From Gyrodactylus bullatarudis (lineage: Eukaryota > Platyhelminthes > Monogenea > Gyrodactylidea > Gyrodactylidae): a DNA stretch of 64,000 nucleotides. The notes under the pieces are model-generated. The model saw nothing but the letters and a program-made list of their open reading frames with translations. It did not search any database and had not been told where the DNA came from. Position numbers and translations under genes: made by a program. Below, piece after piece: positions 4,128 to 61,080 of this stretch (within the stretch, counting starts at the first letter, position 1; each line of letters begins with the position of its first letter). The stretch is taken from contig SSNU01000247.1 in the NCBI GenBank assembly GCA_012064415.1, positions 1,488,629-1,552,628 of the forward strand. Direction: 5' to 3'.

Positions 4128-4405
4128 AGATGGAGATTGTCTTCTCACGTCTAGATGTTAGAAATTCGGATAAGCTTGTATCAATTCCAACCAAGAAAGT
4201 CTAATAATATTCAACTCATGGTGGCAGATGTAGACCACCTCATTAGGACTCGTCAGTACACCACAGCCAGAATTCGAACCCGGGTTTTCAACGTTGGGAG
4301 ACAGACGAAACAGGTCTATATCTGCCACCGTAAGTTGAACTAATTTCACTCTTTTATGGAATTGACAGTTGCTTATCCGAATTCCTAACATTTTGGTGTG
4401 AGAAG
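4128..4405. repeat. Foldback composite with head-to-head hammerhead SINE remnants
   Basis: Outer arms GAGATTGTCTTCTCAC.. and ..GTGAGAAGAAAATCTC flank GTTAGAAATTCGGATAAGC and its inverse GCTTATCCGAATTCCTAAC. Inside, the - strand holds a B box (GGGTTCGAATTC, about 4269-4280) and CTGACGAGTCCTAATGAGG (about 4252-4234) with the GAAA part lost. The + strand holds GACGAAACAGGTCTATATCTGCC-like sequence at about 4311-4333. Both halves of a hammerhead are present in opposite orientations. Confidence 0.7.
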
Positions 4406-6079
4406 AAAATCTCTATCAAGTTAGATTTCATATCGATATATTAATTACCAATGACCACACTCTGCTAGTAGGTTTCATGTCTAAAGACACTGTATTCACT
4501 AAATTTTTATCGATATCAGATAATTAAAGCAATTAAATGCTGACATGTTTGGGATCAAAATTTTAATGTCAAGTTTATCTTTACATTGAACTTTTTCTTC
4601 TCCCAGTCACCAACAAAGAATGTATGACAATTTACTCATTAGACCGTGTCAACTTTCAAGAATATATAAACATAAAACTTGTGTGTGACTAGACTCATTA
4701 GAGCTTTTACTAACATTAGAAAAGATTGTAATTTTCATGCTCCAAATGACTTCACACCAACACATTATCATCATCTTCCTTTTCGTGCTCAAAGAATTAA
4801 AGTACACTCTATCTCTGTTTCTCTTAATTTTTTTTTCAGAGTGTATTCCGTTTTAAGAGTTGTACAAGGTACATCCCAACAATCTTTTTTATCAGATGAA
4901 ATGTAATTAAAATTTTATATAATAACATAGCAATCAAGATAAGAGAGAAATATGTCAATTAGAATTTAATTTTTCTTTGTTTCTGGGTTTCAAAACAGAT
5001 GCATTATTCATGATTCTTCATATCTATCCAGGACTATTTTCCCGTAATGATGACGATGGAGAAACGAATTCTATTGGGAAAAAACCAAATTTGAATTGTC
5101 TAAAATAAGATCAAGTCCATCAAGTACGGGAGACTGATTCAAATTTGTTGATTTCCTATTTTCAGGATAAAAGAATTGGTTAAACTAATCGAGCTATTAC
5201 GTTGGGAATCTATGATTTTTACAAAAATCCCCATTCGAAAAGGATCAAAATTTCTGTGAATCAAGGTTATTATGCCTAGTTATACCATTTGAAGAAAAAA
5301 AGTTTATTTTTAATCCTCAAAGTCCCAGAGAATTTTTCTTCATTCATTCGATATTTTGTGTGTTCAATCAATGTTATGAAGTGGGTTTTCAAAAAAACGT
5401 TCTAAATGTCCACTAAACAAAAATTAATTCTTTGAATAATTATAGCCTATTCTAAGAGAATGATGAACTTCCTATCAGATGGATGGTAAACAAAGTTCTT
5501 TCCGAGCCTTGAATGAATGATAAATTTATAAAATAATATGTGATGGAAATAACTATAAAAGTTATTAAGAAAAATATGGTCGTCTTTCACATTTCGATTT
5601 GAAATTTCATTGATTTTCTTGTTTTTTTATCAAGCATTTTAATTTAATTTTTATTAAGGTTTTATTTCATTGATTTTCAAGTGTTGATTCTTCTTCTGGC
5701 GTGATATTTTCCAAGATGTATTCAAGATTTAATGACTTTTAAGAATATCTTCCAATCTAAATTACCACTCGAGAAAGTTTAGTTTTCAGTTTATATAACT
5801 TAGAGCTTAGTATATATATGAAGGGAATGATGAGCTAGTCCAAACTAATCTGATTTAAAAGCTCCCTAGTCACGTCTATATACAATGATGATTATTTTCT
5901 ATAAGAACCACTTTAAAAAATGAATGTAGATGCGTTCTTTGCAAGATACATTTCCTAGTCTCGAAGTTCCTGAGGATCTTTAATCAGAAGATGGAACTGA
6001 TTTCCAAAGCAGAGAGTATATGGACCCAATTTGAAATCATTCGAACTGAAGGATAGCTTAAAGTGCATTATTCTATTGG

Positions 6080-6722: not shown

Positions 6723-7817
6723 TTAGATAGACCATTAAGAGATAATATTTAAATTCTCTTTTGTGTAACAGATCAAAAAAAGAACAGAGTCTAAAATTAT
6801 TGGATTTCTTTCAAATTAATTAATGATAATTATTATTGAAGCATTAGAATACAACTTTTGTTTGAATAATAAAATCTAAATTTCTCTATTGAATAACAAC
6901 GTGATCAGTATTTACATGCCCTCTAATTTACCTTGCAGTCCCGCCACCCTATTTCCTCTTCACTCGTTCATCCCACACTATGCCCAATATTCCATCTTGA
7001 AACCAACCAGTCATGTTTATAAATGTGAAGGGGGAAGTATGCTTCTGTTTTATTGCCAATGAAAAAGTTGATTTTATTTTTAAATTATGAAAATTTAAAT
7101 TAATTTCTCTTCCCAAGAAATTATGGTAACATTGGCATAATCAAGAGAATATCTATTTTTCTCCGAACAGCTCATGACAGCATCCATCATTGAACAACGA
7201 ATTCATTGGTGAAGCTGGTTAATATGAAGATTAGAATTTATGATTTTTACAAATTCTCAATTTTTTCATCAACACATCGAATTTGATCAAGAATTTTTGG
7301 AATCTAGATCATGAGGCCCACTTTGACGATATGAAGGAAAAAATTTGGGAAATCAATGTTTATAAAAATATTGAATATTTCAAATCTCCAGTTAGCCCAA
7401 AATTCCAATTTTTGTTGACTTCAAAGGGAGAGAGCGATCAAAAGTTGATTTTTAGGATCCCAATGAGATAAGGGATCCAGTGCTCTTGGATCATCGGAAA
7501 TTCAATTTTCACACGATTCTCAAAATCTGGTTCAGCATATTTGATTTCTTTGCCTTATCGTGAATTGCGATTCGTGATCATAAATATCAAATTTTTATGC
7601 TCCAAAATTGTGATTTCACTCAAGATGTATTTCAGTTTTACATTCATAGTTAGAAAGAACAGATATGAACTAGAATACATAGATTAATCCATCACTGATG
7701 CAATTATCAGTTTTTGGTGACGAGAGATAAGTGCTTAAGTCTTGTAGTATCTCTAATAAGAATCAGCTTGTATGTAATTTATAAGCTAGTAAAGCAACAT
7801 TCCAAACATGTATGGCA

Positions 7818-7860
7818 GGTATAGACGCGTTTCGTCCTTATTGAGACTCCTCAGTATACA
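7818..7860 (-). ncRNA. Hammerhead ribozyme, minimal type I, core intact
   Basis: Read on the - strand: GTATA (7859-7855), CTGAGGAG (7854-7847), stem II GTCT/GGAC, GAAAC (7833-7829), GCGT, cleavage after C 7824 (GUC), then TATAC pairing with GTATA. Position 7 is G, which the core tolerates. Stem III has only two possible pairs, so activity may need a dimer. A tRNA-like head lies directly 5' of it. Confidence 0.8.
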
Positions 7861-7931
7861 GAAGCCGAGGTCATCGAACCATGGTCATGGGCATTAAGAG
7901 TCCAACGCTTAGACCACTGGACCAACTCCCC
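7861..7931 (-). repeat. tRNA-like head of hammerhead SINE
   Basis: On the - strand, A-box-like TGGTCCAGTGGTC (7924-7912) and B box GGTTCGATGA (7880-7871) lie at tRNA spacing, with an anticodon-arm-like segment between them. It runs straight into the hammerhead at 7860. It is not a functional tRNA because the T arm and acceptor are imperfect. Together with 7818-7860 it forms a tRNA-derived SINE with a ribozyme body. Confidence 0.75.
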
Positions 7932-8480
7932 AAGTCTATCATAAAGAAATATAATTTAAAAAAATAAGAAATATAAAAAATAAATTAAGTACTTAAATAA
8001 AATACTCAAATAACTAAAACAAAAATATAGAATATTGAGTTTCCTAGCTCTATAGTAATTAGCATATCTCAATTAGATAAATTTTCTATTATAATTATCA
8101 ACTTTGATGTCTTCATGACAGTTTTCATTTAATTAAATAAATGTCAAATAGTTATTGGATAAGTCTACACATAGATTCCACATGTCAGACCAATCAAAGA
8201 TATTACCAAACTAAAAAGTCCTCCTTATTACTTTTCTAGTGTGTAGATATCATCAAGTTGATATACCATCTATTCATTTATTTTGTAGTGCCTTGGTTTA
8301 AAATAAATCCAAATATCAAATTTATCAGTGTTTAATTGATGATTCCTTAAAATGTTAATTGATTAGCAAAAGTTGGTTTAATCTGACTATGAACCGTCAT
8401 TATACCAAAGCTTCAGACCTTATGATACGTTTCAGATAATAATCTAATGAATGAGGCCATTATCTATGTCTCACGACGGG

Positions 8481-19600: not shown

Positions 19601-22600
19601 AAAAAATTGACTATTTAGGACTTTTTGAGGCCCTACTCATAATTAAAGTATGGATATACCATCTTTATTCCTTGCATACTTAATCATAAAGTTTTACCGA
19701 TAATGTTCTATATATCTCTGATTTGGTCCATTGATATTATATGCATACGAATGCTTAATGTGCTATAATTTAGACTTGTACCTAGTTTTTCAACGAAATA
19801 ACGCTCTGAAATATCTCTTTACACCTCTGTGATATGAGAGGAAGAAAGTAATTTTAAAAATCCAAATAGAACACGTTTTAAAAGAAAGTTAGATTAATGA
19901 GGCATGAAAAGATATTTATATCTCAATTTGTTGGAACTTGTATTTTTAAATAGCTAAAGATCACATTTTACTAATTATGATCCAATCTATCGGTCTAATC
20001 TGATTGTGGTTATATTTTCATTAAACGCTTTCAATGATTCACAGGTAGCTAATTCGTGCGGACCTGCCAACTCGTATATTTTCCACTAATATATTCAAAA
20101 ATTAAAACTTATGAGTCGCATAAGAAATATGAGCAGAACAATCTCTGGTAATTTAAACTTGACTACGAGTTTGCAGATCAATACGAATTAGCTACTGCAA
20201 CATGAACATTGTACAGAAAAGTTGATTAAAATTCCTTTTCTTTAAATAGTTTAGAGTTTCCGCCAACAGACGGTGCTCCCAGTCACTTGTGCATTCCGCT
20301 TGAAGATATCGAGAGTGTTGAAATAGGTAAGTCTACTTCTTCTCTTGACAGTTCTACTTGAATTGGTAGATTGTTTTCACATTTGTCTCAAGTGATTTTT
20401 AGAGGATAAACCAAATTTTGCACTCTTGATTTTGCTTTTGGTTTAGGTGTAACATTTTTTAACGATCTGATTATTATCAACACCACCATCGTCTTCATCA
20501 TATTTCAATGCATAACAAGTCTCTTCCAACAAAATCCATCTAAGCATGAATAAATAGGCCTAGTATCGTCTAGCTATCACTTAGTGTTGAAAAAAAACAT
20601 TGAACATACTAAGCAAAGTGTGGTCCCTGGTAATTACTACTTCTCACACCTAGATGTTAGAATTCCATACTCAAGACTCGTCAGTTCAACATTGCAAGGA
20701 TTCGATTCCGGGTCTTCAACGCTTCTAACCACTAGGCCAAAACCCTCGTTCATCTCTTATCACTCAACACTCCTATACTCTTGACACAATCTACACACTG
20801 CTTGTTTTGAAAAGATTACAGTGTTTTTAGACATAAAACCTACTAGAGAAGCGTGGTCACTGGTAATTACTATTATATCCATTAATTACCAGTGACCACA
20901 CTTTGCCAGTAGGTTTAATGTCTATAAACACTATAATCTCTAAATTTTTATTATTCAAAAACATTTAAACATTTCCTTTTCGACCTTTGATTAGTTGATC
21001 TGCGATTCTTGAAATTCTTCACTTGTTCATTCCTTTATGCTCAACGCATAGCTTCCGATTGAAATCCAAATTAATAGGCACACTATTACCGCTTCAAGAA
21101 AAAAACTATGGAGACATTTTTCCAATTGAATTTGTCAAGTTATAACTTGAAAATAATTATTTTTCAGGTTCACCAGTAACCAGACACTATTATTATTGAG
21201 ATTTTAATAAAAAACCTCATTATCGTGCTAAATTCTACTTCTTATTCTTCGACCATTTTTACACCTTGAAATTCTGTAAATTTGGGTGATCCGAGATCAG
21301 ATCAAATTGACAGTTCTTTCAAAAATTAATGGAGATCTTGAAAAATAGCGTTTTATTGCTTTAACTCTAAAATGCATCGAGAATAACTGTCCAATTACAC
21401 ACATCCTTTTATATTTGTAACTACTCTTTAGATATTCAAGAAAGCTTCTTCTGTTTAAATAATCTTTCCATCCAGACGTTTTGATACTGTTCAAATTACA
21501 AGCGTCTCATCCACTGGTGAAGGTACTTTAATATCTCAGTACCGAAACGTCAAGAAGAGGTTTTTGGGAAGAGATTGGTTTTATTGTAACTACAAATCTA
21601 CTTTTACTAATACATTTACTGAAAATCATTGACTCTTTTTTGATCTTCTTCCAATTTTAGGTTTGGAGCCTTCCGTCTTCAAGGCAATTCATTCTTGCAT
21701 TCGTATAAACTACATACCACCCCATTTGGAAAATCAAGTTAAAATGAACAAAAGAGTAAGTCTTCAACCTCAATTATTCATTAGATCTTCTTTTATTAAT
21801 GCAAAAAGTTTATCAATTGGATAAAACCTAAGTAGGAATTAGTTTTAAAATTGGAGCGCGAAATAAATATTTTGCATCTGAGTAAAATTCTGAATAATTA
21901 GCTCTAACTAAATTAGGCAAAAATAGTACATTAACTAAGCCTCTTCGTGGCTATATTATGAGTATAATGACACCCCTATTTCAAGTACATTCGGACTTTA
22001 ATTTTATTATCGAAACTTGTATAGGCTCTCGATTGAAAACCGACTAATATTCTGCTCAAAATTTTGACCTAGTCATCGCTGAAGCTATCAAAATTAATTT
22101 CATTCATACCTAGTTCATTTTCAAAAAAATAAATTGCGTCTTTGAACTTGAAACCTTGCTTTTAACATTTGGTTGACAATTGATTGAAAAAACCCTCTCT
22201 ACTCAGGCTTTCTCCTCAAATATTAAACCTTATTGGGATACCAATAATGATAATCCAACATTTGTGATTTATAATTTGCCTTTGGGTGATAGCCCCAGAG
22301 CAAAATATCGTATATATACATATTAGAATGTAGAGAGAATAATTTGGTGCATAATTATTATTTGCTGTAAATATAAATAAGATGATCTATATTTCCTTAC
22401 GGTGATCTGAAAATGAAAAATCTTTCAAAACATGTTTCCTTTTACAGAGCATTCATTCATCCTACATAAAATGCCTAATTGTTGCTTATTCCTTTCAATT
22501 GAAACAATTTTTGACAAAATTTCGGTTTTGTCCATATCAAGCAATATTGCATGATTTATGTTTGAGATGTATTCTTTTAGATTCTGCAAAACTCTTCCTC

Positions 22601-45003: not shown

Positions 45004-46511
45004 TCAGCATTTATTTTCGCAGCTTAAGGATGAATGGCACTTGGAGTTGCATGTAACATGGTTTTTTCGACACTTGCACATCCTTGTATTACAACCTGAG
45101 GTACAGTTGCACTTAAAAAAACCTTGCCCACCTGAACGAGATTGTTTCGAGCTTGCTGTTCGTACACTCAATACTTCATTAGGCTTATCTTTGATATTTA
45201 AGATTTTTTCCTTTATTGGTTTGACTTGTCCGAAGCCCAATACACCTTGAAGATTACCGTTTTCACAAGCTACTGAGTAGCCGATTTCCTTAATTTCGGT
45301 TACGACACCAAGCAAGTTTCTGTCATCAATTCGTGATCTATCGATTTCAGGTATTGGTACAAGAACATTTTCTCCAACTTCAGCGCGAATCAATTTGTTG
45401 TTCTTTAACATTTTTGTTGCGCATACAATTTGATTTTCTCTTGCTCTCTCTCTTAGATCGTTTTGGGTTCCATTCAATTCTTGAGATTCTAAAAAATATT
45501 TACATAAGAATTAAATTACCTTCGAGCATTTCCATGTTGTCTTCAAAACTGACATAATGATCCTCAGAGAACTCATCTTTTTCGTTGATAAAATCTACTC
45601 CAAACAATACTTTATAAGGAGTTGATTTTATTGTTCGATGATATCTATTATTTTTGATCATCTGAACTTTGAGCACGCCCTTTGCCCAGCAAGAAGTTTT
45701 ATTTTCATGAAGCCAACTCTTGAGAATATCCTCAATGTCTCTGTTAGCACGTTCTACTGAACCTTGTGATTGACTGTGTCTGGGACGACCATGTACAATA
45801 GTTAATCCCGGAAATTCATTGGTGAGAGAATCTATGAGGGCATTATTGAATTCTCTGCCATTGTCTGATTGGAGTATTTTAGGAGGTCCAAATGTAGAAA
45901 ATATTTCCACTAGTTTAGATTTCACTTCCGCTGCTGTTTTTGATTTCAAAGGGCGCAAGTTAACAAATTTTGTAAAGTGATCTTGAACCACTAATATAAA
46001 CTTGAATTCGTTGTCCGGCGATGATTGGTAATCAATCAGATCCATCTGAGCTCGGGAATTGAAATTTTTTGATAAAATAGTTTTGACAACCAAACCTTTA
46101 TTTTGCTTTGGAAGATTTTTCATACAATGATCGCAGAGAGAAATAAAATTTTTTATCTGATCCATCGAAATGTTCTTGTATTTAGAGTCGACTTCGGATT
46201 TATTAATTTTTGATTTTGCATGTCCCATTCTTAAATGACATTCTAAAATTATATCATAAATATCCTCTCTTTGCATAGAATTTGATAACATTGTCATTTT
46301 CGACGTTTGAAATTATTTTAGATACACCATCGATTGTCTGGTAATTAAATTTCCTCTTAAGCCTGTAGTGTTCAGGGTTTAGTTTTTGACCTGCATGAGC
46401 ATATTTGATCTTATCTAATAAACAGTTGTATTCTTGCTCAGGTAAGATTTGAGAATTTTTAGCATAATTCTTTTCATCTAAAATTTGATAGAACCTTTCT
46501 TTAGGATTCAT
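45004..46511 (-). pseudogene. Ginger/KRBA2-like integrase-transposase, one frameshift
   Basis: Starts at a real ATG (46511). Frame one runs to 46254; frame two covers 46297-45521; a last exon covers 45488-45004. Frames one and two join if one base is skipped near the KFYAK..EDIYD junction, so this copy carries a one-base insertion. The middle part is a retroviral-type integrase core: first Asp in MDLIDYQS, second in LQSDNGREF, Glu in SQGSVERANRD, and an upstream H..H..C..C zinc site (HLRMGH, CDHC). After a 31-bp GT-AG intron (45519-45489) comes the tail, with VPIPEIDRSR and a cysteine-rich FKCNCTSGC..CKC..C..KCHSSLSC block typical of KRBA2-like proteins. It would act in the nucleus to cut and join transposon ends. 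Confidence 0.88.
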
Positions 46512-50110: not shown

Positions 50111-50723
50111 CGTTGAGAGAAAATCCCCATATACTTTTTCTTTGATAGATTCTGTAATGCTTAGTTATCGCCGTTTTCGATGACAAAATTTGAATATTCT
50201 AATTTTCTGATATGTATAACTTCAAATTTCTCTAAATACCATTAAAACTTTCAGAGAATGAGGTAGCGAAAAGGTTTAAAATAGCCATCAGAATAATTTC
50301 CATCCGAAAAGTCTAACAGATTGCTAAAAAAGGTGAATTTTATTTATAATCGTAGTAAAGTTCATTCAAAATTTGTTATTTTCAAATGAGATTTCAGAAA
50401 AAAATTTAAAATATTTAATTCTCAAAATTTATTTGTCTATCGAAATAAAATTTAGGCTATTTCTCAAGGGTTCAAATTTGTATATATGATAGAATAAGGG
50501 ATTATAAAAATATTCAGTAAATTCTCTTCTCCATCACTCTAGATAGATCAAAGAGAGACTTGAACCCAACCAGGCCATAAAGTCCTAACCCCGGATTTCT
50601 TATTGTTCCTCCAGGCGAATAGCTTCTTCTATCAGACGATAATTTAAAACCAAGAGACGTATGCCAAAACGTAATAAAATATCTAATTAGCTAATGGATA
50701 GTGCAGCACCTATACTTACAAAG

Positions 50724-51014
50724 TTTAACTAGAAATATTTCGTTCTAGGTGCTTAGGTCGTATATCCCACAGGAACGTCTTATTTGATAATGGCATACTG
50801 ATGAGTCCAGAAAAAGGACGAAACGCGCGTATATGTCTACCATATATGTATACTTAAATTATTTCTAAATGCTTTGTAAGTTTCTTTCATACCAGACTCG
50901 GTGGGATCCATTAGTAAGCTGTAACATTCAGCGACATGGGCTAATCCATTACCAAATAAGACGTTCCTGTGGGATATACGACCTAAGCACCTAGAACGAA
51001 ATATTTCTAGTTAA
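50724..51014. repeat. Foldback repeat, family X copy 1
   Basis: Arms TTAACTAGAAATATTTCGTT.. (from 50724) and inverse ..AACGAAATATTTCTAGTTAA (to 51014) are nearly identical over 60 bp. The loop carries the intact hammerhead. The copy lies just past the stop of the - strand gene. Confidence 0.85.
50792..50837 (+). ncRNA. Hammerhead ribozyme, minimal type I, core intact
   Basis: Stem I 3' strand GGCATA (50792-50797), then CTGATGAG (50798-50805), stem II GTCC/GGAC with loop AGAAAAA, GAAAC (50820-50824), the self-complementary ACGCGCGT as a very short stem III, predicted cleavage after A 50831 (GUA), then TATGTC (50832-50837), which pairs with GGCATA. All invariant core bases are present. The layout matches the minimal type I hammerheads of Schistosoma satellites and animal retrozymes, which have the same tiny stem III. 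It sits in the loop of a foldback repeat, antisense to the 3' flank of the - strand gene ending at 51083. Confidence 0.85.
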
Positions 51015-51082
51015 TCTAATTAGTTATATATCCATAGAATCTTACTTAGTGATGCAAAATTGAATAAATGGAGAATTCAATT

Positions 51083-52915
51083 CTAAGAGAAATATTCATT
51101 TAATAATCTATTGACAACGTTCAAGTAATCCTTTTGTTTAGACACACTGCCATAGTTTCCCTCTAAGAATTCAGCAAGAATCTTCAAGCAGCCAGTTCCC
51201 CTATCGAGACGATAGGTTAGCTGATTGATAAACTCCAAGTCTTCCTCTGAGTTTTCATCAAATAGGAGTGCCCTGTAGATATCTTGGCATAGCTTGAGAA
51301 AATGAAAAATTAATAATTTCGGACCTTTTATTTAAACTCTTTCATAGACGAAATCATTCAAATTTACAAAAGATTATTCGTCGATTAGTTAGAAATTCGA
51401 GGATATTACAAATGAAGTATTCATAAAAATTTTACTTGAAATCATTGTGGCAAAAGTACAGACAAGATATACTTTCAATGCTAATGACCCTGGTTCAATT
51501 CTTGGCTATGGTATAATTAGGAGTCTCAATAAAAACGAAACGTGCCTGCCATCCACCAAAAAATAAAATCAGTACAAGTTGAAGAATACAACGTCAGCAC
51601 CACTAAAAGTAAGAATGATTCTTTCAAAGATTAACAAGAAATATTTCGTTCTAGGTGCTTAGGTAATATATTCCACAGGAACGTCTTATTTGGTAATGGA
51701 TTGAGCATTTGACTACAATGTGAGAGGTCCTAGGTTCAAATCCCAGGCTGCGGCATACTAACGAGTGCAAAAGAGGACGAAAGGCGCGTGTATGCATACT
51801 CAGATTATTTCTAAATCCTTTGTGAGTTTCTTTCGTACCAGTCTCGGTGGGATCCATTAGTAAGCTGTAACATTCAGCGACATGAGCTAATCCATTACCA
51901 AATAAGACGTTCCTGTGGGATATATTACCTAAGCACTTTAGAACGAAATATTTCTAGTTAACCTTTATAAGATGTATTTAAAATGAATAGAGGCTCGTAA
52001 AAAGTTATTTCTTTTTCATCTTGATGACACAAAAAATTCTCTAATGAACAATACAAAGAATTCTCTGTTCTTTTTTCTTCTTCTCAAATGCTACAATTAG
52101 AGGAACAAGAACATGTCCACATTCATACGAGTATGAATAAATTAATTTTAAAAAATAATCACAATTGGATATTTAAAATCGATGCACGTTAAATCTATAT
52201 TATTGTTGATGATAAAGATCCTATTCACATTAACTGATAAGTTATCAGTGATAACTCTGCCGTAGGAAAAGGCTATATTTGAAGAGCGGAAGATCATCTT
52301 AAGAAGGATATTACGAATTTTAGACAAAAAGTAGATGCGGTTTCAATACTAAATTTTCCTTTTTAAACAGAAACCTTGATGATGTATAGATGTTTGAGTA
52401 AAGGAGAAATTCTTTACCAATCAAAAATACCTGATCTCCTGTATTCGGAAAAATTATTTCTATAATCTTTAACTACCTTAGCCTATGTGAAAGCTTTTCA
52501 CTTTTCTCTTCCTTGACACTGATTATGGTCTGAGAAATGAAACATTTGTTTTTAAAACACGAACCAATCAAATTAAAGAGAAAATCAAAACCTCATTGGT
52601 TAAAAATATTGACTCACCTGATAAATTCTCTGGGCCAATGCTACTTCAGTGCATCTTTCTTGTTCAAAACGTACCATTTTTATGAGATAAACGATAATAT
52701 CAATTGCCTGATAGACATCTTGTAGTCGGGATAATTGATCGATCATGATCAAGGTTGGACTCCTTATTCTACTTCCAATGTTTAGGAAAATATTCTTCTT
52801 CAAATGCAATGAAATTTGACTTAGCCGACCCTCGGCAAATACGAGAAGCTGATTGAAATCTTCCTTCTCTTGCATTCCCAGACAGATAAAAGACTTGAGG
52901 ATTAGAGTGCTAATT
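51083..52915 (-). CDS. Unrecognised helical protein, last two exons
   Basis: Two - strand exons, 52915-52618 and 51292-51083, joined by CAG/GTGAGT and TTCTCAAG in phase 0, give 168 residues and a TAG stop. The sequence is alpha-helical, leucine-rich and soluble-looking (FAEGRLSQISLHLKKNIFLN, LAQRIYQLCQDIYRALLFDE, CLKILAEFLEGNYGSV). It resembles the end of a large helical-repeat or complex subunit, but I do not recognise the family. The acceptor before 52915 is CTCTCAG. A donor at about 52949 would leave a 35-bp intron and an open frame above it, but I cannot confirm that exon. The 1.3 kb intron holds a foldback repeat with a decayed hammerhead. Even phase and good splice sites make it a real gene. 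Confidence 0.72.
51508..51555 (+). repeat. Decayed hammerhead remnant
   Basis: GGTATAATTAGGAGTCTCAA, then AAAACGAAACGTGCCTGCCA, aligns with the - strand ribozyme at 7818-7860 but has lost CTGA and one side of stem II. Confidence 0.6.
51631..51961. repeat. Foldback repeat, family X copy 2
   Basis: Same arms as copy 1. The loop holds the tRNA-like head with the mutated hammerhead. Located in the intron of the - strand gene 51083-52915. Confidence 0.85.
51684..51797 (+). repeat. tRNA-like head plus decayed hammerhead
   Basis: The tRNA-like part has B box GGTTCAAATCC at about 51733, then stem I GGCATA, CTAACGAG where CTGA should be, a poor stem II, GAAAG (51779-51783) and GCGCGTGTATGCATA. The G5-to-A change in the core should abolish cleavage. 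It lies inside foldback copy 51631-51961. Confidence 0.75.
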
Positions 52916-53346: not shown

Positions 53347-54503
53347 TCATGAAAAATCAATGATACTCCTTTTCTTACGATCTTTCGGTGGTTTTTTCAA
53401 ATGATTCGAATTCTTTAGGATATTATAGTGCATCGTGACATCTTCAAGGGTCTTTTTCCGCTTACTCTTTGCTGTTACCTCATCCTTATTAGCAGCTGCA
53501 TCATTCTCACTATTTCCAGTCTCATATGAGATATAGTCATCTTCATCATCCTCACCAAGGTTGCTTTGATCGCTAACATTTGTCTGCCAACGGTAGGCTA
53601 TATTGAATTGTTTCTGCATGTTGGTGATAACGTCATTCCGGCGTCGGGAATTGTTGTCGCCAGTTGACGGAGTCTCATCAGTAAATGCTAGGGCTCTTTT
53701 CCTCTTGTCGGCTTGTATCTCTGAAATGATTGAATGTATTGTGGCCATAACAAAATTTCCACTAAACGACATGTGATACAGGGCATAAGCGATGCAGAGA
53801 AAGTCGGCAAACTTGCTGTCAGCAATACTTTCATCATATCCAGCCAAAACCATGATGAAAATGTACAGGTTGCCAAGGACAAAGGGCAAGTTTAATGCAA
53901 GAAAGGTTAGCGGTTCATAGAATAGGCCGTATTCATTTCTATGGAGATTCTTTAGAAATATTATTGTCAAGAAAATAATAACAACTGATGGGATAATATT
54001 ATTAACAATACAATCGGCAATATAGGAAAATGAAACGGGTAAAATTCTGAAAAACATTAACGAGTACATGGGTATCGACAGCGTAGCACCGACAATAAAA
54101 ATAGGAATTGAAGACCAAACTATTGACCTGAAAATATTTTTTATGATCAAATGACGTCGTTCCGGTGACTGGGTACAAGAGTAGTTCCAGAAGAATAAGA
54201 AATACGGTACAACTATCAGGTAGGTTGCAAAGAATCTGGCCATGAAGCCAAAAACAATGATGGCTTTACTGATGTTGGAATAAATACGATTCATTGTGAT
54301 AAGACGATAGAGTCGGGGGGACGATTCGAATAAAATTACTAACAGAGAAGATATACAGGCGACAAGCCGATAAAGGAACAGGTTTTTGTCGTAATCTGGA
54401 ATTTTCGACGTGTCATTTGTCTTGCCCCGAATAACTCTCATTTTCTTACATTGCCTCGCCCAAATGTAGGCTGCAGCTGTCTGGACAATGGCTGGAATGA
54501 TCA
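53347..54503 (-). CDS. Divergent seven-transmembrane receptor, last exon
   Basis: 385 codons ending in TGA at 53347. The first in-frame start is not real: TTATTCCAG is an acceptor at 54504, so an upstream exon supplies the N-terminus and part of helix 1. Hydrophobic segments fall at about residues 1-17 (partial), 41-60, 78-108, 124-152, 161-186, 197-222 and 233-262, followed by a charged 120-residue tail. Spacing and the IVNNIIPSVVIIFLTIIFLK fifth helix look like rhodopsin-class neuropeptide receptors of invertebrates. However, helix 3 ends FFWNYSCTQSPERR in place of a clear DRY, and helix 7 reads SFSGNFVMATIHS in place of NPxxY. The tail has acidic and basic tracts. It is probably an orphan GPCR; a non-GPCR membrane protein is possible. 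Confidence 0.75.
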
Positions 54504-55284
54504 CTGGAATAAGAAAAAATAATCATTTTCATCCATTTTAGGGCAAGACAAATTTAAATTTAAAAATGTTAAATTAATATCAAATATATTCTGAATATAC
54601 CCTGAAAAAATCCGGTCAATTTGGAAAAAAACATAAAGAATCTATCAAAAATAGGAAAAAGACATATTCCCAATCTGAAAATGTTTAGAAAGCTTTACGC
54701 TACGGAGCATTGAGTAAAAACCTGAAAAGTAGATCAACTTGTATCTTTATTTTTTCATGTCAGATAATTACAATGAATTACTAATGAACTGATAAGGAAA
54801 AATGATTCCTTCCTATACTGAAAAAAGAGATCATGATAAAAATGAATTTCTCCAAGAGAATAAATCGGCCTCTAGTTTCATGCTTGACTTGAGGCATTTT
54901 TCTACAGAGAGTAATAATAATGAATGATTTTGTTGAGGAAAGAAACGTTAGCAGATTCCCGTACTGTATCACGTAAAAGAGTATTGAAAAAAGATTCGTC
55001 AAGAAGAAGAGGAAATTGCTTCAAAAACTATGCGCCCTCATTTACTAATAGGATGAATGGGAAAAAATGCCAAAGCAATAAATGGCCCCGCTCACACAGC
55101 TAGCTAATAATCAGTTTTTTCTTGAAACGGAGATGAAATATTCCTATCTAAGTGATGATCTTTTTCACATTGCAAGAAGAAATGAGCTTGGAAGATGTAC
55201 CTTGGAGAAGTACAAAAAATAACTATCATAAATTAACTCTTAAACCTACCAGTAGTTACTATATCCATCTGAACTCAAACTTGA

Positions 55285-55510
55285 TGGAGATTCTCTTCTC
55301 ACACCTGTAGATGTTAGAATTCGGATAAGCAAGTGTCGATTCCATAAGAGAGACAAATAATATTCAACTCACGGTGGCAGATGTAGACGTGTTTCGTCCT
55401 TCAGTCAAAACCAGTCAACGTTGAAGACCCGGGTTCGAATCCGGGTTATGGTTTACTGACAAGTCTTAACAAGGACGTAACGCGTCTACATCTGCCACTG
55501 GATATAGTTA
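55285..55510. repeat. Second foldback composite with head-to-head hammerhead SINE remnants
   Basis: Same family as 4128-4405 (TCTTCTCACACC, GTTAGAATTCGGATAAGC). A perfect tRNA-type T arm, CCCGG-GTTCGAAT-CCGGG, lies at 55428-55445. On the + strand, CTGACAAG (55456-55463), GGAC, GTAAC, GCGTC is a hammerhead with two core mutations. On the - strand at about 55410-55375, GGACGAAACACGTC has lost its CUGANGA side. Confidence 0.75.
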
Positions 55511-57057
55511 TTACTACTGACACTTTACTAGTACGTTTAATGTCTAAAACCAATGCAATTTCTACATTTTTATTGTATAAATAAGCTCAAATTTATCACT
55601 AAACATCAGTCCATGGTAGAATTGGGAAATATATATAATAAAAGCGAATCTCATGGGGTTTCTTTTCTCTAAGATGAAATTTTTAAAATGGGCCTAGTTT
55701 TTGGATTTTTTCAAAGATTCCTTGGGCTACTTTCAAGAATAAACACATGTTTTAATGTATTTTTGCTGTGGCATAGTTAGACACATTGAAGAAAAACATC
55801 TTTACTTTTTCACTAATAGTTATCGATGAAAATCATCATTTCTATGACAACAGAGAGATTGAAATCAGTTCAGTAGAATCGAATGTTGATACTAGTTATT
55901 TTTAGTCGAATAATGATTAGTATTTAGCTAGTGATGAAAGAGGCTGAGGGAATCGGTAATGACAGGAATAAAATTATTACAATGTATAGAATTTAAAGGG
56001 ATTTTAAACACTCAACCTACTGGTAAAGTGTGATTACAGGCGCGTGAGAAGACAAACTCCATCAAGTTGGCTTTTAATGAAGTTTGTAACAACCTGGTAC
56101 CCAACACTAGGCCTGTAGGTTTAAGGGATCAAGTATTTTCGTGTAGCTTGATTAACTTGTACAAGAACCCAAGACTGGAAATATTGATTTTCAGTTTAAA
56201 CAAGGCAAACTATGATATTCATTTCTATAATAAAATGATAAATGTTCAAGTTCACAATATTGAAATTAGAAAAAATGCTTAATCATTTTAAATGTCTTAA
56301 ATTTCCAATATCCAACTACACTGAATTCACTTTAAACTTTTTTTCTGTCAACTCTTGTTTTAAAATAATAAATATTAATTTTATGAACTTGAATAAAATT
56401 AGTGATTCTGAAAATTTGCTCTAAAAATTTAATGATAAAATCTTTTTGAAGAACTTTTTCATTAATTAACACAACTTCTGATGGTCTTCTGATTTCTCTG
56501 AAAAAATCTTTTTGTTATTGTCCTTGTCCCCAGAACAATATTTCTCACAATTTTGAAGGTCTCTAAAATTTTTAATAATGGATCTTCAGATCACAAAATT
56601 TCTTAATCTTTAATTTAATTTCTTATTTTTATGTTTTTGCCTTCAATTCTGTTGAAAAATGAATAGATTCTTGGTTTCGGCATATGCGAAGACTATTTTC
56701 AGAACAGCTTTACTCTCTTTTTTGTTTAAGGGAAAATTAGTAGTAACCTTGGATCAATGAATTGGATTTATTAGTTAGAAGAGATTGGAGAACTATTTCA
56801 CGAATAAAACATAATTCAGGATGGGGAAAATATATGTCACGACATCTGCGGTGTAATTTGATAGAGGAATATATGATTTATTGGAAATCCTAATTTGCCC
56901 TAAGCAGAAAAATACAAGCAAGCTCATTCCTACCCAAGTCGAATGTAGCATCTTAAAAATCATTAGCCAAGATTAGTACGCCATCTAAAATACCAAAAAC
57001 GAAGGAGGTTGAAAAGAATAAGTGAAGATAAATTGACTGATAAATTATCAATGATAT

Positions 57058-58648: not shown

Positions 58649-59725
58649 CATTCAATAGATGATTTCAATTATATAAGATTTATTAGAATACACGCCAGAG
58701 TGAAAGAGAAGGACAAAACAATGTACGAAACCAACACTAAACATCTTTTGCTCAAACTCCCATTTAAAGGTGATGTTACCAATTCCGTATTGAGAAACAA
58801 GTTGACAAAAATCACAACAGAAACCTTCCCTGGACACAAGGTACGGTTCCTGTCGAAGACAACAAAGTTGCTCAATGACCGAAACAAGGATCCGGTCAAT
58901 TGGCTCAATAGGAAAGGTGTCGTCTACGAATTCAAATGCTCCTGCAGCCAATCATACATTGGCATGACTGTAAGGCCCATTTCAGCTAGGATCAAAGAGC
59001 ATCTCAATCCCAGCAATGACGGTTCTTCTATACAGGAACATTTACGTACGACTAGCCACTCAGCGGGAATCGAGAACTTCAGAATCAGATACGCCGCAGA
59101 TCCAAAGCTCAGTAAGCACCAAATCCAAAAAGTCTTGGAGATAGCTGAGACGAAGCTGGTGAATGAGGAGTTATCCTCGCTATGTGCACAGAAAATATTG
59201 GGCAGGAAGTTAGGTTTCACAGGTGTCAATTTCCACAGAGCATCCAAGATAATTAAGAAAGTTTCAAAGATGATCAGAGGGTCCCCTGTGAGTCCCCCAT
59301 CTCCAACTCAAAACTTAGACCCAAAATCGGAAATTTTACCCTCCACCTCAACATCAGTTGATACAAAACAATCCAAGAGCGGTCCAATGTTCACCTCTAC
59401 ACAAATAAATGGATCAAATAACGATGACCCAGCAACTATATTGGCAAAAACTCAAACCTCGACATCAGTTGATATTAACACCTCCTCTAGTTGCAAATCA
59501 TCAAATGAATCCAACTCACAAAACCCTAGTAACCAAATTTCTACTGTACCCCACGATGATCGAAAAAGGTATTTTTCTCAGCCAGAAGTACAAGCCCCTA
59601 CTCCATCACGAAAAAGAAATCTGTCGACATCACCTAAGCAACAAAAAAGAAAGGGGAAACAGAGAAAACGATTACCAACTAACAATCAGACAATAGATGT
59701 ATTCCTCACAGCCCCAAGAGTATGA
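58649..59725 (+). pseudogene. Penelope-like element, C-terminal part with GIY-YIG endonuclease
   Basis: The frame is open from just after a TAG at 58646 to TGA after 59725. Residues near the start (FNYIRFIRIHARVKEKDKT) look like the end of a reverse transcriptase thumb, then VYEFKCSCSQSYIGMTVRPI is the GIY-YIG core with its cysteine pair, followed by SARIKEHL and the conserved Arg/His. This order, reverse transcriptase then GIY-YIG, is that of Penelope-like retroelements. The last 140 residues are Ser/Thr/Pro-rich then basic (RKRNLSTSPKQQKRKGKQRK), which is unusual for the family and could bind nucleic acid. The reverse transcriptase core is missing, so this is a 5'-truncated copy. The coding frame is intact, so insertion may be recent. 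Confidence 0.85.
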
Positions 59726-59831
59726 GCACACTCAACCCCCATTGGTCAATCTTGGATGATTAATTGCTATTCGTCAGATTTTATAATGTTCCTTAATCTT
59801 GCATGTATATAAATATATCTGAAGTCGGTGT

Positions 59832-59874
59832 TTGGTCTGAAGAGAACCGACGAAAATAAAGCTTTATTCACCAA
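59832..59874 (+). ncRNA. Hammerhead-like motif at the 3' end of the Penelope-like element
   Basis: TTGGT (59832-59836), CTGAAGA (59837-59843), GAACCGAC, GAA (59852-59854), the perfect palindrome AATAAAGCTTTATT (59855-59868) as stem III, C as cleavage base, then ACCAA (59870-59874), which pairs with TTGGT. The weak part is stem II, which has only one closing pair in this fold. A competing hairpin pairs GTCGGT (59824-59829) with ACCGAC (59846-59851). Penelope-like elements are known to carry hammerheads. Confidence 0.5.
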
Positions 59875-61080
59875 TAATCCTTCGTTCGTTCTTAACACTA
59901 GCATGACTTCGAGTCAGCAAGCTCAAAATCATATAAGAATCAATTTTCTAAAATGCCAGAAAAATTTAAAAAATCAATCTCAAAGTTGCATTTTTTTGAT
60001 TTATAATTACTATACTACTTATAAGTATTTTTAGAGGAACCTAACTAATGAAATTCAATTTGAAAATTAAAAACGTTCTAAATATTTTTTCTGAAGTTTT
60101 TCAATTAAGAATAGGCTTAATAGAATCAGAAAAATTCAGGGATTAATATAATTGATTGTATTTGAAAAGTTGAAAAATTTGTTCAAATTGAGCGATTTTT
60201 CAAACTGAGAAAAATTTATACATTGTATATTGTAAAATATGCATAAGAATAGTTGAAGGGTCATTTTCTATCATGCAAAAAATTTGAACAAAAATCAGAA
60301 ATTTTGTTGACACAAGATTGACTAAAAATTCTGCAACAATTTACGGTAGAGAACTTATTTTTACTCAAAATCCCTTGAACTTTCTTGAAAGTACTTTTCT
60401 CTACTTATTTTTCAGTTTACGAGATATTATTTTTTATGGTACTATTTTTTCCAATCAAGTATCGGAAATACTTGGTTAAAAAATTTAGAAAGAAAAATTG
60501 ATGATCATGATAAATTTGATTTTAATGAATGAATAAAATTCATGTTACTTAAAATTTGTTCCTGCATAGCTTAGCCTTAGTTGGTGGGAAGTGGAGGAAA
60601 AATTGGTTAGGAAAATACTCAAATTCTATTGGTTGTTGGTTTTCATGCATATTATTGGTCACCTGAACAGGAGCAGAGAAGTATAAATATAATTTTGGTA
60701 GGAAATATATTCATCCCGTGAGCCATCATGTATGTAATTAACTGTACTTGACTAATATAGAGACTCAATACCAAAACGTCTGGGAGGGGCTTCGGTAAAT
60801 GGGTGGTTAACCCTTAAAATCCCTCTGAATTCTATCAGATATTGCTTTAACAACTCATTCATTCATCTAGGCTTTGTAGAACACTTGTCAGATATCAGCT
60901 CTATCATTTGAATTTGAGGAAATTAATCGGGTTTCCTGGCAGAGATCGATATCAAATATAAAAAATCTGTGTAGCCTATGACACGAAAGTGATAATCCTT
61001 CATCCAGGTTATCTTAATTTCATGAAAAATTGATCGAGTGATTTTGAAGTGTAAAAGCGCACAAAATTGATTATATAAAG

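Follow-up and report, generated by a model that had tools for sequence, protein, structure and literature searches.

Hammerhead ribozymes joined to tRNA-like heads in a dispersed Gyrodactylus repeat family with Penelope-like insertion anatomy

The window analysed here, a stretch of 64,000 nucleotides from Gyrodactylus bullatarudis, carries copies of a repeat in which a hammerhead ribozyme sits immediately 3' of a tRNA-like head. This head-hammerhead join is real and is repeated in three subfamilies. On balance, we lean towards a model where the repeat is a non-autonomous retrozyme of about 340-380 nucleotides that carries an RNA polymerase III promoter and is moved by a Penelope-like enzyme. 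Combinations of tRNA-related sequence and hammerhead are of a kind known from schistosomes; what is new is an insertion anatomy that resembles that of Penelope, with paired ends that are mostly unequal.

A sequence-only reading of the window had proposed a tRNA-like segment running into a hammerhead with an intact core, on one strand, at 7818-7931. We confirm this arrangement on the minus strand, from 7940 to 7818. The elements of the window are given below, where long-form and short-form refer to two classes of 3' end described later.

4129-4303, minus strand: subfamily 3 element with truncated hammerhead; its inverted arm is at 4304-4497, plus strand
7940-7863, minus strand: tRNA-like head, subfamily 1, with A box at 7924-7914 and B box at 7880-7870
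7860-7818, minus strand: type I hammerhead with intact core and a very short stem III (ACGCGU)
7817-7711, minus strand: body of the subfamily 1 element of 7940-7818, ending ..CGTCACCAAAAA, with an internal deletion
7972-8032, plus strand: inverted tail piece of the subfamily 1 element at 7711-7940, with long-form end
20597-20938, minus strand: subfamily 3 element with truncated hammerhead, whose arms form a palindrome at 20828-20924
50681-50690, plus strand: target site duplication ATCTAATTAG, left copy
50688-50793, minus strand: inverted arm of a subfamily 2 element, with long-form end
50791-51011, plus strand: sense part of the subfamily 2 element of 50688-51011, with head gone, hammerhead intact at 50792-50837, and short-form end
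51014-51023, plus strand: target site duplication ATCTAATTAG, right copy
51471-51542, plus strand: truncated subfamily 1 fragment with decayed hammerhead
51618-51702, minus strand: inverted arm of a second subfamily 2 element
51697-51971, plus strand: sense part of the second subfamily 2 element, with B half of the tRNA-like head, decayed hammerhead at 51752-51796, and body
55252-55401, minus strand: inverted arm of a subfamily 3 element
55416-55559, plus strand: sense part of a subfamily 3 element, in which the B box is present and the hammerhead at 55450-55492 is decayed
58700-59929, plus strand: Penelope-like element with short-form 3' end; open frame at 58700-59725 with a GIY-YIG-like motif (by eye)

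The head at 7940-7863 has the A box TGGTCCAGTGG, which matches at 11 of 11 positions, and the B box GGTTCGATGAC, which carries a small insertion and matches at 9 of 11 by eye. In the adjoining hammerhead at 7860-7818, the CUGANGA, GAAA and GUC elements are all intact and five of six stem I pairs form. The subfamily 2 element at 50688-51011 is flanked on both sides by ATCTAATTAG. Four further loci had been read as head followed by ribozyme: 51684-51797 and 55428-55496 on the plus strand, and 20762-20644 and 4280-4234 on the minus strand. The order holds at all four (subfamilies 2, 3, 3 and 3, respectively), but their cores are broken. The ribozyme at 51752-51796 reads CTAA, that at 55450-55492 reads CTGACAA and GTAA, and those at 20762-20644 and 4280-4234 are without the GAAA half. 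A further copy suggested at 2180-2086 (minus strand) mapped to none of the subfamilies and is left without support. The top-scoring hammerhead of the window, at 50792-50837 on the plus strand, has an intact core and was absent from the loci of that reading.

Rfam gave no match in the window at the gathering score. With a lax threshold, the Hammerhead_1 model matched 50792-50837 (29.2 bits, E 0.004), 7859-7819 (24.9 bits, E 0.11) and 51755-51793 (22.9 bits, E 0.5), all below its gathering score of 34. ARAGORN called no tRNA gene in the window. A scan of both strands for A and B boxes, each matching at 10 or more of 11 positions and set 28-60 nucleotides apart, found no pair (0.4 per shuffled window), and the window copies are thus decayed in their box content. 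Weak Rfam scores for miRNA precursors at 20828-20924 were set aside, since this near-perfect palindrome consists of the inverted 3' arms of the subfamily 3 copy. Elsewhere in the window, the remnant of a retroelement lies at 45004-46297 (minus strand), where an integrase core domain was matched (PF00665, 35.2 bits). An open frame of 385 amino acids at 53347-54504 (minus strand) has several hydrophobic stretches and looks, by eye, like a multi-helix receptor; Pfam found no match for this frame, even at E 5.

The prediction that these copies belong to a dispersed family was borne out in the genome assembly (77.3 Mb in 471 contigs). The mitochondrial COI frame of this assembly, on contig C13, reads with the flatworm code, and its best named matches are Gyrodactylus albolacustris (89%) and then Macrogyrodactylus (84%), as expected of a gyrodactylid monogenean and not of a schistosome. 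At least three subfamilies were mapped, based on an oriented alignment of eight copies and the mapping of 98 loci, the window and five short loci. The order within the unit is head, hammerhead, body, tail and leader, and the units are 375, 378 and 342 nucleotides long. In the composite units of subfamilies 1 to 3, the A and B boxes match at 11 and 10, 10 and 11, and 11 and 11 of 11 positions, respectively, with a spacing from A box to B box of 44 nucleotides in every one. Real copies are often decayed relative to these composites.

Searches with parts of the unit indicate how firmly the parts are joined. A 32-nucleotide pattern for the ribozyme type at 7818, allowing up to three mismatches, has 59 matches in the genome, and the reversed pattern that served as control has none. 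RF00163 has at least 57 genome matches at E of 0.001 or lower, with 73 of 11180 candidates scored; 29 are over the gathering score, and 30 of the 57 were taken as loci. For the subfamily 1 head, a 28-nucleotide pattern has 20 matches, again with none for the reversed control. All 20 lie within an element and none resembles an ordinary tRNA gene. Seventeen run on into a hammerhead segment (L093 partly, L123 in decayed form), and the join thus survives, for subfamily 1, a search for head and ribozyme apart from each other. In L120, L121 and L124 the head is without hammerhead, yet body or tail of the element follows, so these copies look like internal deletions. A chance adjacency of tRNA remnants and hammerhead-like motifs at a few loci could account for the sub-threshold Rfam scores and decayed copies of the window, but it is refuted by the head and ribozyme match counts and carries practically no weight with us.

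Many copies have lost part of the head. Among 100 elements that keep 30 or more nucleotides of the hammerhead, both boxes were mapped in 27, the B box alone in 38, the A box alone in one and no head in 34, frequencies that are conditional because loci were chosen by similarity to the ribozyme or the unit. Among copies that were read out, the head was lost through 5' truncation or at the junction with an inverted arm. A tail pattern with up to three mismatches has 545 genome matches and none when reversed, a count that covers subfamily 2 only. Throughout the tallies, L001 (the window copy) and L039 (the same place as L029) are included among 105 elements and in the grouping of ends, and dropped from the counts of 100 elements, of 103 elements and of hammerheads. 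Subfamily 1 copies at L007, L047, L061, L062, L098 and window position 51471 have different flanks and start at about H38-41, in the would-be anticodon arm, possibly because of a reverse transcriptase stop or a single truncated source. Subfamily 1 copies mapped from about H36 gave no ground for claiming a stop at a tRNA position; of six copies read, five seem to start at about H38-41 and one is an internal deletion.

The hammerhead of the unit is of type I and sits directly after the head. With inverted arms counted, the loci examined contain 49 hammerheads that have CUGANGA, GAAAC, a GUH site and at least four of six stem I pairs. This tally is a count of patterns in which stem II was not judged, and one stem II pair is broken in L005. 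The subfamilies differ in stem I through changes on both sides (GGUAUA/UAUACC, GGCAUA/UAUGUC and GGUGUA/UACAUC). The stem I pairs were tallied by a script from unaligned ends, because MAFFT, applied to 50 hammerheads, put the 3' strand of the subfamily 2 stem I in the wrong place, and the count is biased in that only copies with at least four of six pairs were retained. As read from the sequence, subfamily 2 has a stem III of three base pairs and the other two subfamilies have one of two base pairs. Hammerheads with such a short stem III tend to function better as dimers.

Kinship of the head with tRNA genes was assessed against 20 of at least 33 RF00005 matches in this genome (63 of 5621 candidates scored), 18 of which are called by ARAGORN. 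The best alignment scores for the heads of subfamilies 1, 2 and 3 are 19, 19 and 22, and the maxima among 200 shuffles are 13, 19 and 15. Alignment to tRNA therefore beats every shuffle in subfamilies 1 and 3, whereas subfamily 2 ties the best shuffle. Among those 20 loci the best-matching tRNA is Gly for subfamilies 1 and 3 and Arg for subfamily 2; a Gln-TTG gene (L128) ranks second for the subfamily 1 head, at 17 versus 19. Rfam reported no head as tRNA at E 1 in 20 loci. ARAGORN called the three heads at a relaxed threshold only, at which it also called 5-9 of 200 shuffles.

The sense strand of the composite units is without a TTTT run. Only 61 of 2545 stretches of 375 nucleotides on the plus strand of the window are likewise TTTT-free, but among dinucleotide shuffles of the three units the fractions are 0.61, 0.19 and 0.39, and against these the absence of TTTT is weak evidence. 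With two boxes at fixed spacing and no TTTT run, transcription by RNA polymerase III is plausible on sequence grounds, and the hammerhead would be expected to cut the resulting transcript.

A check for target site duplications, which the sequence-only reading had suggested, was positive. Duplication scores of at least 9.5 occur in 15 of 105 elements (0.3 expected) and scores of at least 6.5 in 30 (6.1 expected), where the expectation comes from flanks re-paired between loci; the other 75 elements have no scorable duplication. The 23 duplications scoring at least 7.5 are 8-14 bp long.

Parts on both strands are present in 45 of 103 distinct elements. All 45 face outward and none is arranged tail-to-tail, and the remaining 58 elements lie on one strand only. 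Such long inverted arms might bring to mind a DNA transposon of the MITE or foldback type, with a tRNA remnant and a ribozyme present by chance in its inverted repeats. This explanation was rejected because the duplications vary in length and the outer ends are unfixed, differing between the two arms; the one-stranded majority also speaks against it, and we regard it as highly improbable. The inner limit of the inverted arm is likewise variable. Some arms pass through the hammerhead, and that of L029 reaches the B box. In this subfamily 2 copy (L029, the same place as L039), the two inverted arms both end just past the hammerhead (B2-B4), unlike the usual 3' ends.

The usual 3' ends fall into two groups, at about T1-T19 and T40-T68 in subfamily 1 and at about B150-T16 and T31-L7 in subfamily 2, with the two places about 33-40 nucleotides apart. 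Subfamilies 1 and 2 together have 37 inverted copies. Both ends lie in this tail zone in 22 of them; at least one end falls outside it, mostly inside the unit, in the other 15. The 22 zone copies comprise 17 with one long and one short end, four short/short and one long/long, against 11.3 mixed copies expected (p 0.019), with a long/short cut that was chosen after viewing the positions and whose alternatives yield 15-19 mixed copies of 22. Mixed ends are found in 12 of the 14 zone copies supported by duplications (7.4 expected, p 0.019). Subfamily 3 does not enter the test because its tail was not resolved. Among the 17 mixed copies, 11 carry the long end on the inverted arm and six on the sense side. 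Folding near the initiation places revealed no common structure; only the subfamily 1 tail beats its shuffles (z -3.9), with z of -0.1 and 0.8 for the other tails and -1.2 for Penelope.

This anatomy bears on whether the repeat is a conventional SINE like Sm-alpha, moved by a LINE, with inverted arms due to twin priming or later rearrangement. A tRNA-like head, duplications of variable length and 5'-truncated copies would all be expected of such an element, and Sm-alpha is termed SINE-like and tRNA-Gln-TTG-related in the accessible text of PMC2770079. The 15 inverted copies with an outer end off the tail zone are also in keeping with it. However, that both arms start in the 3' zone of the RNA in 22 copies is unexpected under twin priming. 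Duplications flank 14 of these 22 whole inserts, which are therefore not later rearrangements, and Penelope-like copies of this genome show a like anatomy. We consider a LINE-moved element unlikely. The label SINE, used in the sequence-only reading, is apt as regards the tRNA-like head, the dispersed copies and the variable-length duplications, but its LINE-driven sense is doubtful, because outward inverted partial duplications and two end places are Penelope-like.

Another proposal is that inverted arms arise by self-priming, or snap-back, of a single cDNA or RNA rather than by priming at two target ends. The authors of PMC3846280, in the part of that article available, prefer self-priming for rotifer Penelope elements. 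At L005 (1080-1880), the inverted repeat extends beyond the unit into both flanks and both ends are long-form, so that this locus looks like a snap-back copy of the target side. Neither its two equal ends nor its continuation into the flanks is predicted by a model of two-end priming. Self-priming predicts equal outer ends, whereas 17 of the 22 zone copies are unequal, which favours two separate starts. As a general explanation, self-priming therefore seems to us very unlikely.

Some inserts point to templates longer than one unit. In L002, L004, L044, L010 and L018, body end, tail, leader and head follow one another in direct order, forming partial direct tandems. Together with the type I hammerhead and the unit length of 342-378 nucleotides, these tandems might suggest a metazoan non-LTR retrozyme that has an RNA polymerase III promoter and is copied from circular RNA, with some other retroelement as its mover. 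Retrozymes of metazoans, including platyhelminths, are on record in the accessible text of PMC7229834. Against this proposal, the loci examined (about 1-3 kb each) showed no array of complete direct units, and two-strand copies are common. It departs from the reading that we favour in the enzyme alone, and we judge it quite unlikely.

The candidate mover belongs to a Penelope-like family of this genome. The open frame of the Penelope-like element in the window has at least 130 genome matches, with 118 of 2372 candidates scored. A reverse transcriptase domain (RVT_1, 33.7 bits) was matched in a representative frame of 802 amino acids. The same frame shows, by eye, a GIY-YIG-like motif, for which Pfam gave no match. 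The relatives matched are unnamed proteins or proteins with a reverse-transcriptase domain, from flukes and other organisms. At 59837-59870 (plus strand), within the 3' region of the window element, a minimal hammerhead-like motif was recognized by eye (CTGAAGAG..GACGAAA, then the palindrome ATAAAGCTTTAT). This motif is present in seven aligned Penelope-like copies (L100-L104, L110 and L111), with changes in L104, and was not reported by Rfam. We base the name Penelope on the reverse transcriptase, the GIY-YIG-like motif, the ends and the minimal hammerhead-like motif.

The 3' ends of these Penelope-like copies lie at two places 36 nucleotides apart, 27 and 63 nucleotides into an open ATG frame of 21 codons. 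An inverted 3' arm is present on the other side in four of 20 Penelope-like loci; L103, L114 and L119 have one long and one short end, and L108 is intermediate. In all, Penelope 3' pieces occur in both directions at six places; L105 and L061, where the two ends are not both present, were left unclassed. The L103 duplication is 8-11 bp long, and its edge overlaps the element end. No clear common sequence was found between the unit tails and the Penelope 3' ends, so that the identity of the mobilizing enzyme is a deduction. Sequence kinship between tails and Penelope ends was rejected; the comparison gave a 23-nucleotide match where L101 is rich in A/T and, in L105, a piece resembling subfamily 3.

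In the model that we favour, the A and B boxes of the head would serve as an internal RNA polymerase III promoter, and the hammerhead right behind it would cut the transcript. Templates of more than one unit, which might be read-through multimers or circles, are indicated by the copies that run in direct order from body end through tail, leader, head and hammerhead to body. Reverse transcription would begin towards the 3' end of the unit, from either of the two places about 33-40 nucleotides apart where ends are observed to cluster. A Penelope-like enzyme would prime both ends of a staggered target cut, such that both outer ends of the insert represent antisense starts, in most cases from different places. 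Once joined, the two cDNAs would give the arrangement observed, an outward inverted partial copy beside head and hammerhead, flanked by duplications of 8-14 bp. The units are too short for an open frame of their own with reverse transcriptase and GIY-YIG. The off-zone ends of 15 of the 37 inverted copies count against this model.

We tentatively extend this model, with rather less confidence, to a Penelope-dependent SINE, that is, self-cutting polymerase III RNAs that are parasitic on Penelope, with the paired long and short ends recording both initiation places, each used once. It is conceivable, at a similarly cautious level, that one initiation place serves each target end, as a dimeric enzyme that primes on two strands would do. 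If the rule of one long and one short end holds across a full census, it would provide a concrete and testable model for Penelope integration, in a cycle that is poorly known. In a compact genome with many short inserts, the inverted arms, the duplications and the pairing of ends give access to the chemistry of insertion.

A literature search found nothing that pairs a hammerhead ribozyme with Gyrodactylus. Within its scope, mostly titles and abstract openings with most subscription journals outside, there was no account of this family or of a Penelope-driven SINE. The nearest published analogue is Sm-alpha, as the sequence-only reading had held. The accessible portions of PMC2770079 and PMC8490949 describe an element that joins a tRNA-related part to a hammerhead. 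According to the former, S. mansoni has about 38,500 hammerhead candidates, and 2,342 of its 2,368 tRNA-Gln-TTG calls are SINE-like and similar to Sm-alpha. Like the Schistosoma elements Sm-alpha and Sj-alpha, the gyrodactylid repeat belongs to a flatworm and combines tRNA-related sequence with a hammerhead; its head with A and B boxes lies 5' of the type I hammerhead and in the same orientation. It differs, as far as the published descriptions allow comparison, in having at least three heads (best matched by Gly and Arg) and Penelope-like inverted inserts. Elements that combine tRNA-like sequence with a hammerhead are thus extended from blood flukes to Monogenea.

Metazoan non-LTR retrozymes, as portrayed in the available part of PMC7229834, resemble the present units in being short and non-coding, with type I hammerheads and tandem structure. 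The gyrodactylid units differ in their tRNA-like head, their frequent outward inverted copies and their direct tandems, which are partial only. The same source treats Penelope-like elements as a strong candidate for the mobilizer of retrozymes, a proposal made from co-occurrence, tandem structure and shared ribozymes. The inserts described here bear on which enzyme moves animal retrozymes. A looser parallel is offered by Helenus and Ajax, non-autonomous retroelements that contain sequence from a small-RNA gene. However, these are LTR retrotransposons, and in the text of PMC10886601 that was accessible hammerheads appear only in the title of a reference.

The closest likeness in insertion anatomy is to Penelope itself. 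From the accessible text of PMC3846280, Penelope copies have an inverted pLTR, duplications of 8-10 bp and an optional 31-bp tail on one inverted pLTR, and the pLTR contains the first 12 codons of the frame, or 22 with the tail. That study explained the inverted repeats of rotifer elements by self-priming on an antisense template. For a Penelope enzyme, the available part of PMC11167929 reports cleavage and extension on both strands of the target. Synthesis starts at two neighbouring internal sites of the RNA, close to the beginning of the frame, with no bulk difference between strands. Judged against these two partial sources, the units share with Penelope a one-sided inverted partial copy, short duplications, an optional tail of 30-40 nucleotides at one end and a hammerhead. 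Unlike Penelope-like elements, they are without a frame for reverse transcriptase and endonuclease, their hammerhead is canonical rather than minimal, and they have a tRNA-like head. The Penelope-like copies of this genome, for their part, have 3' ends placed within the frame start much as in the Penelope copies described in the accessible text of PMC3846280.
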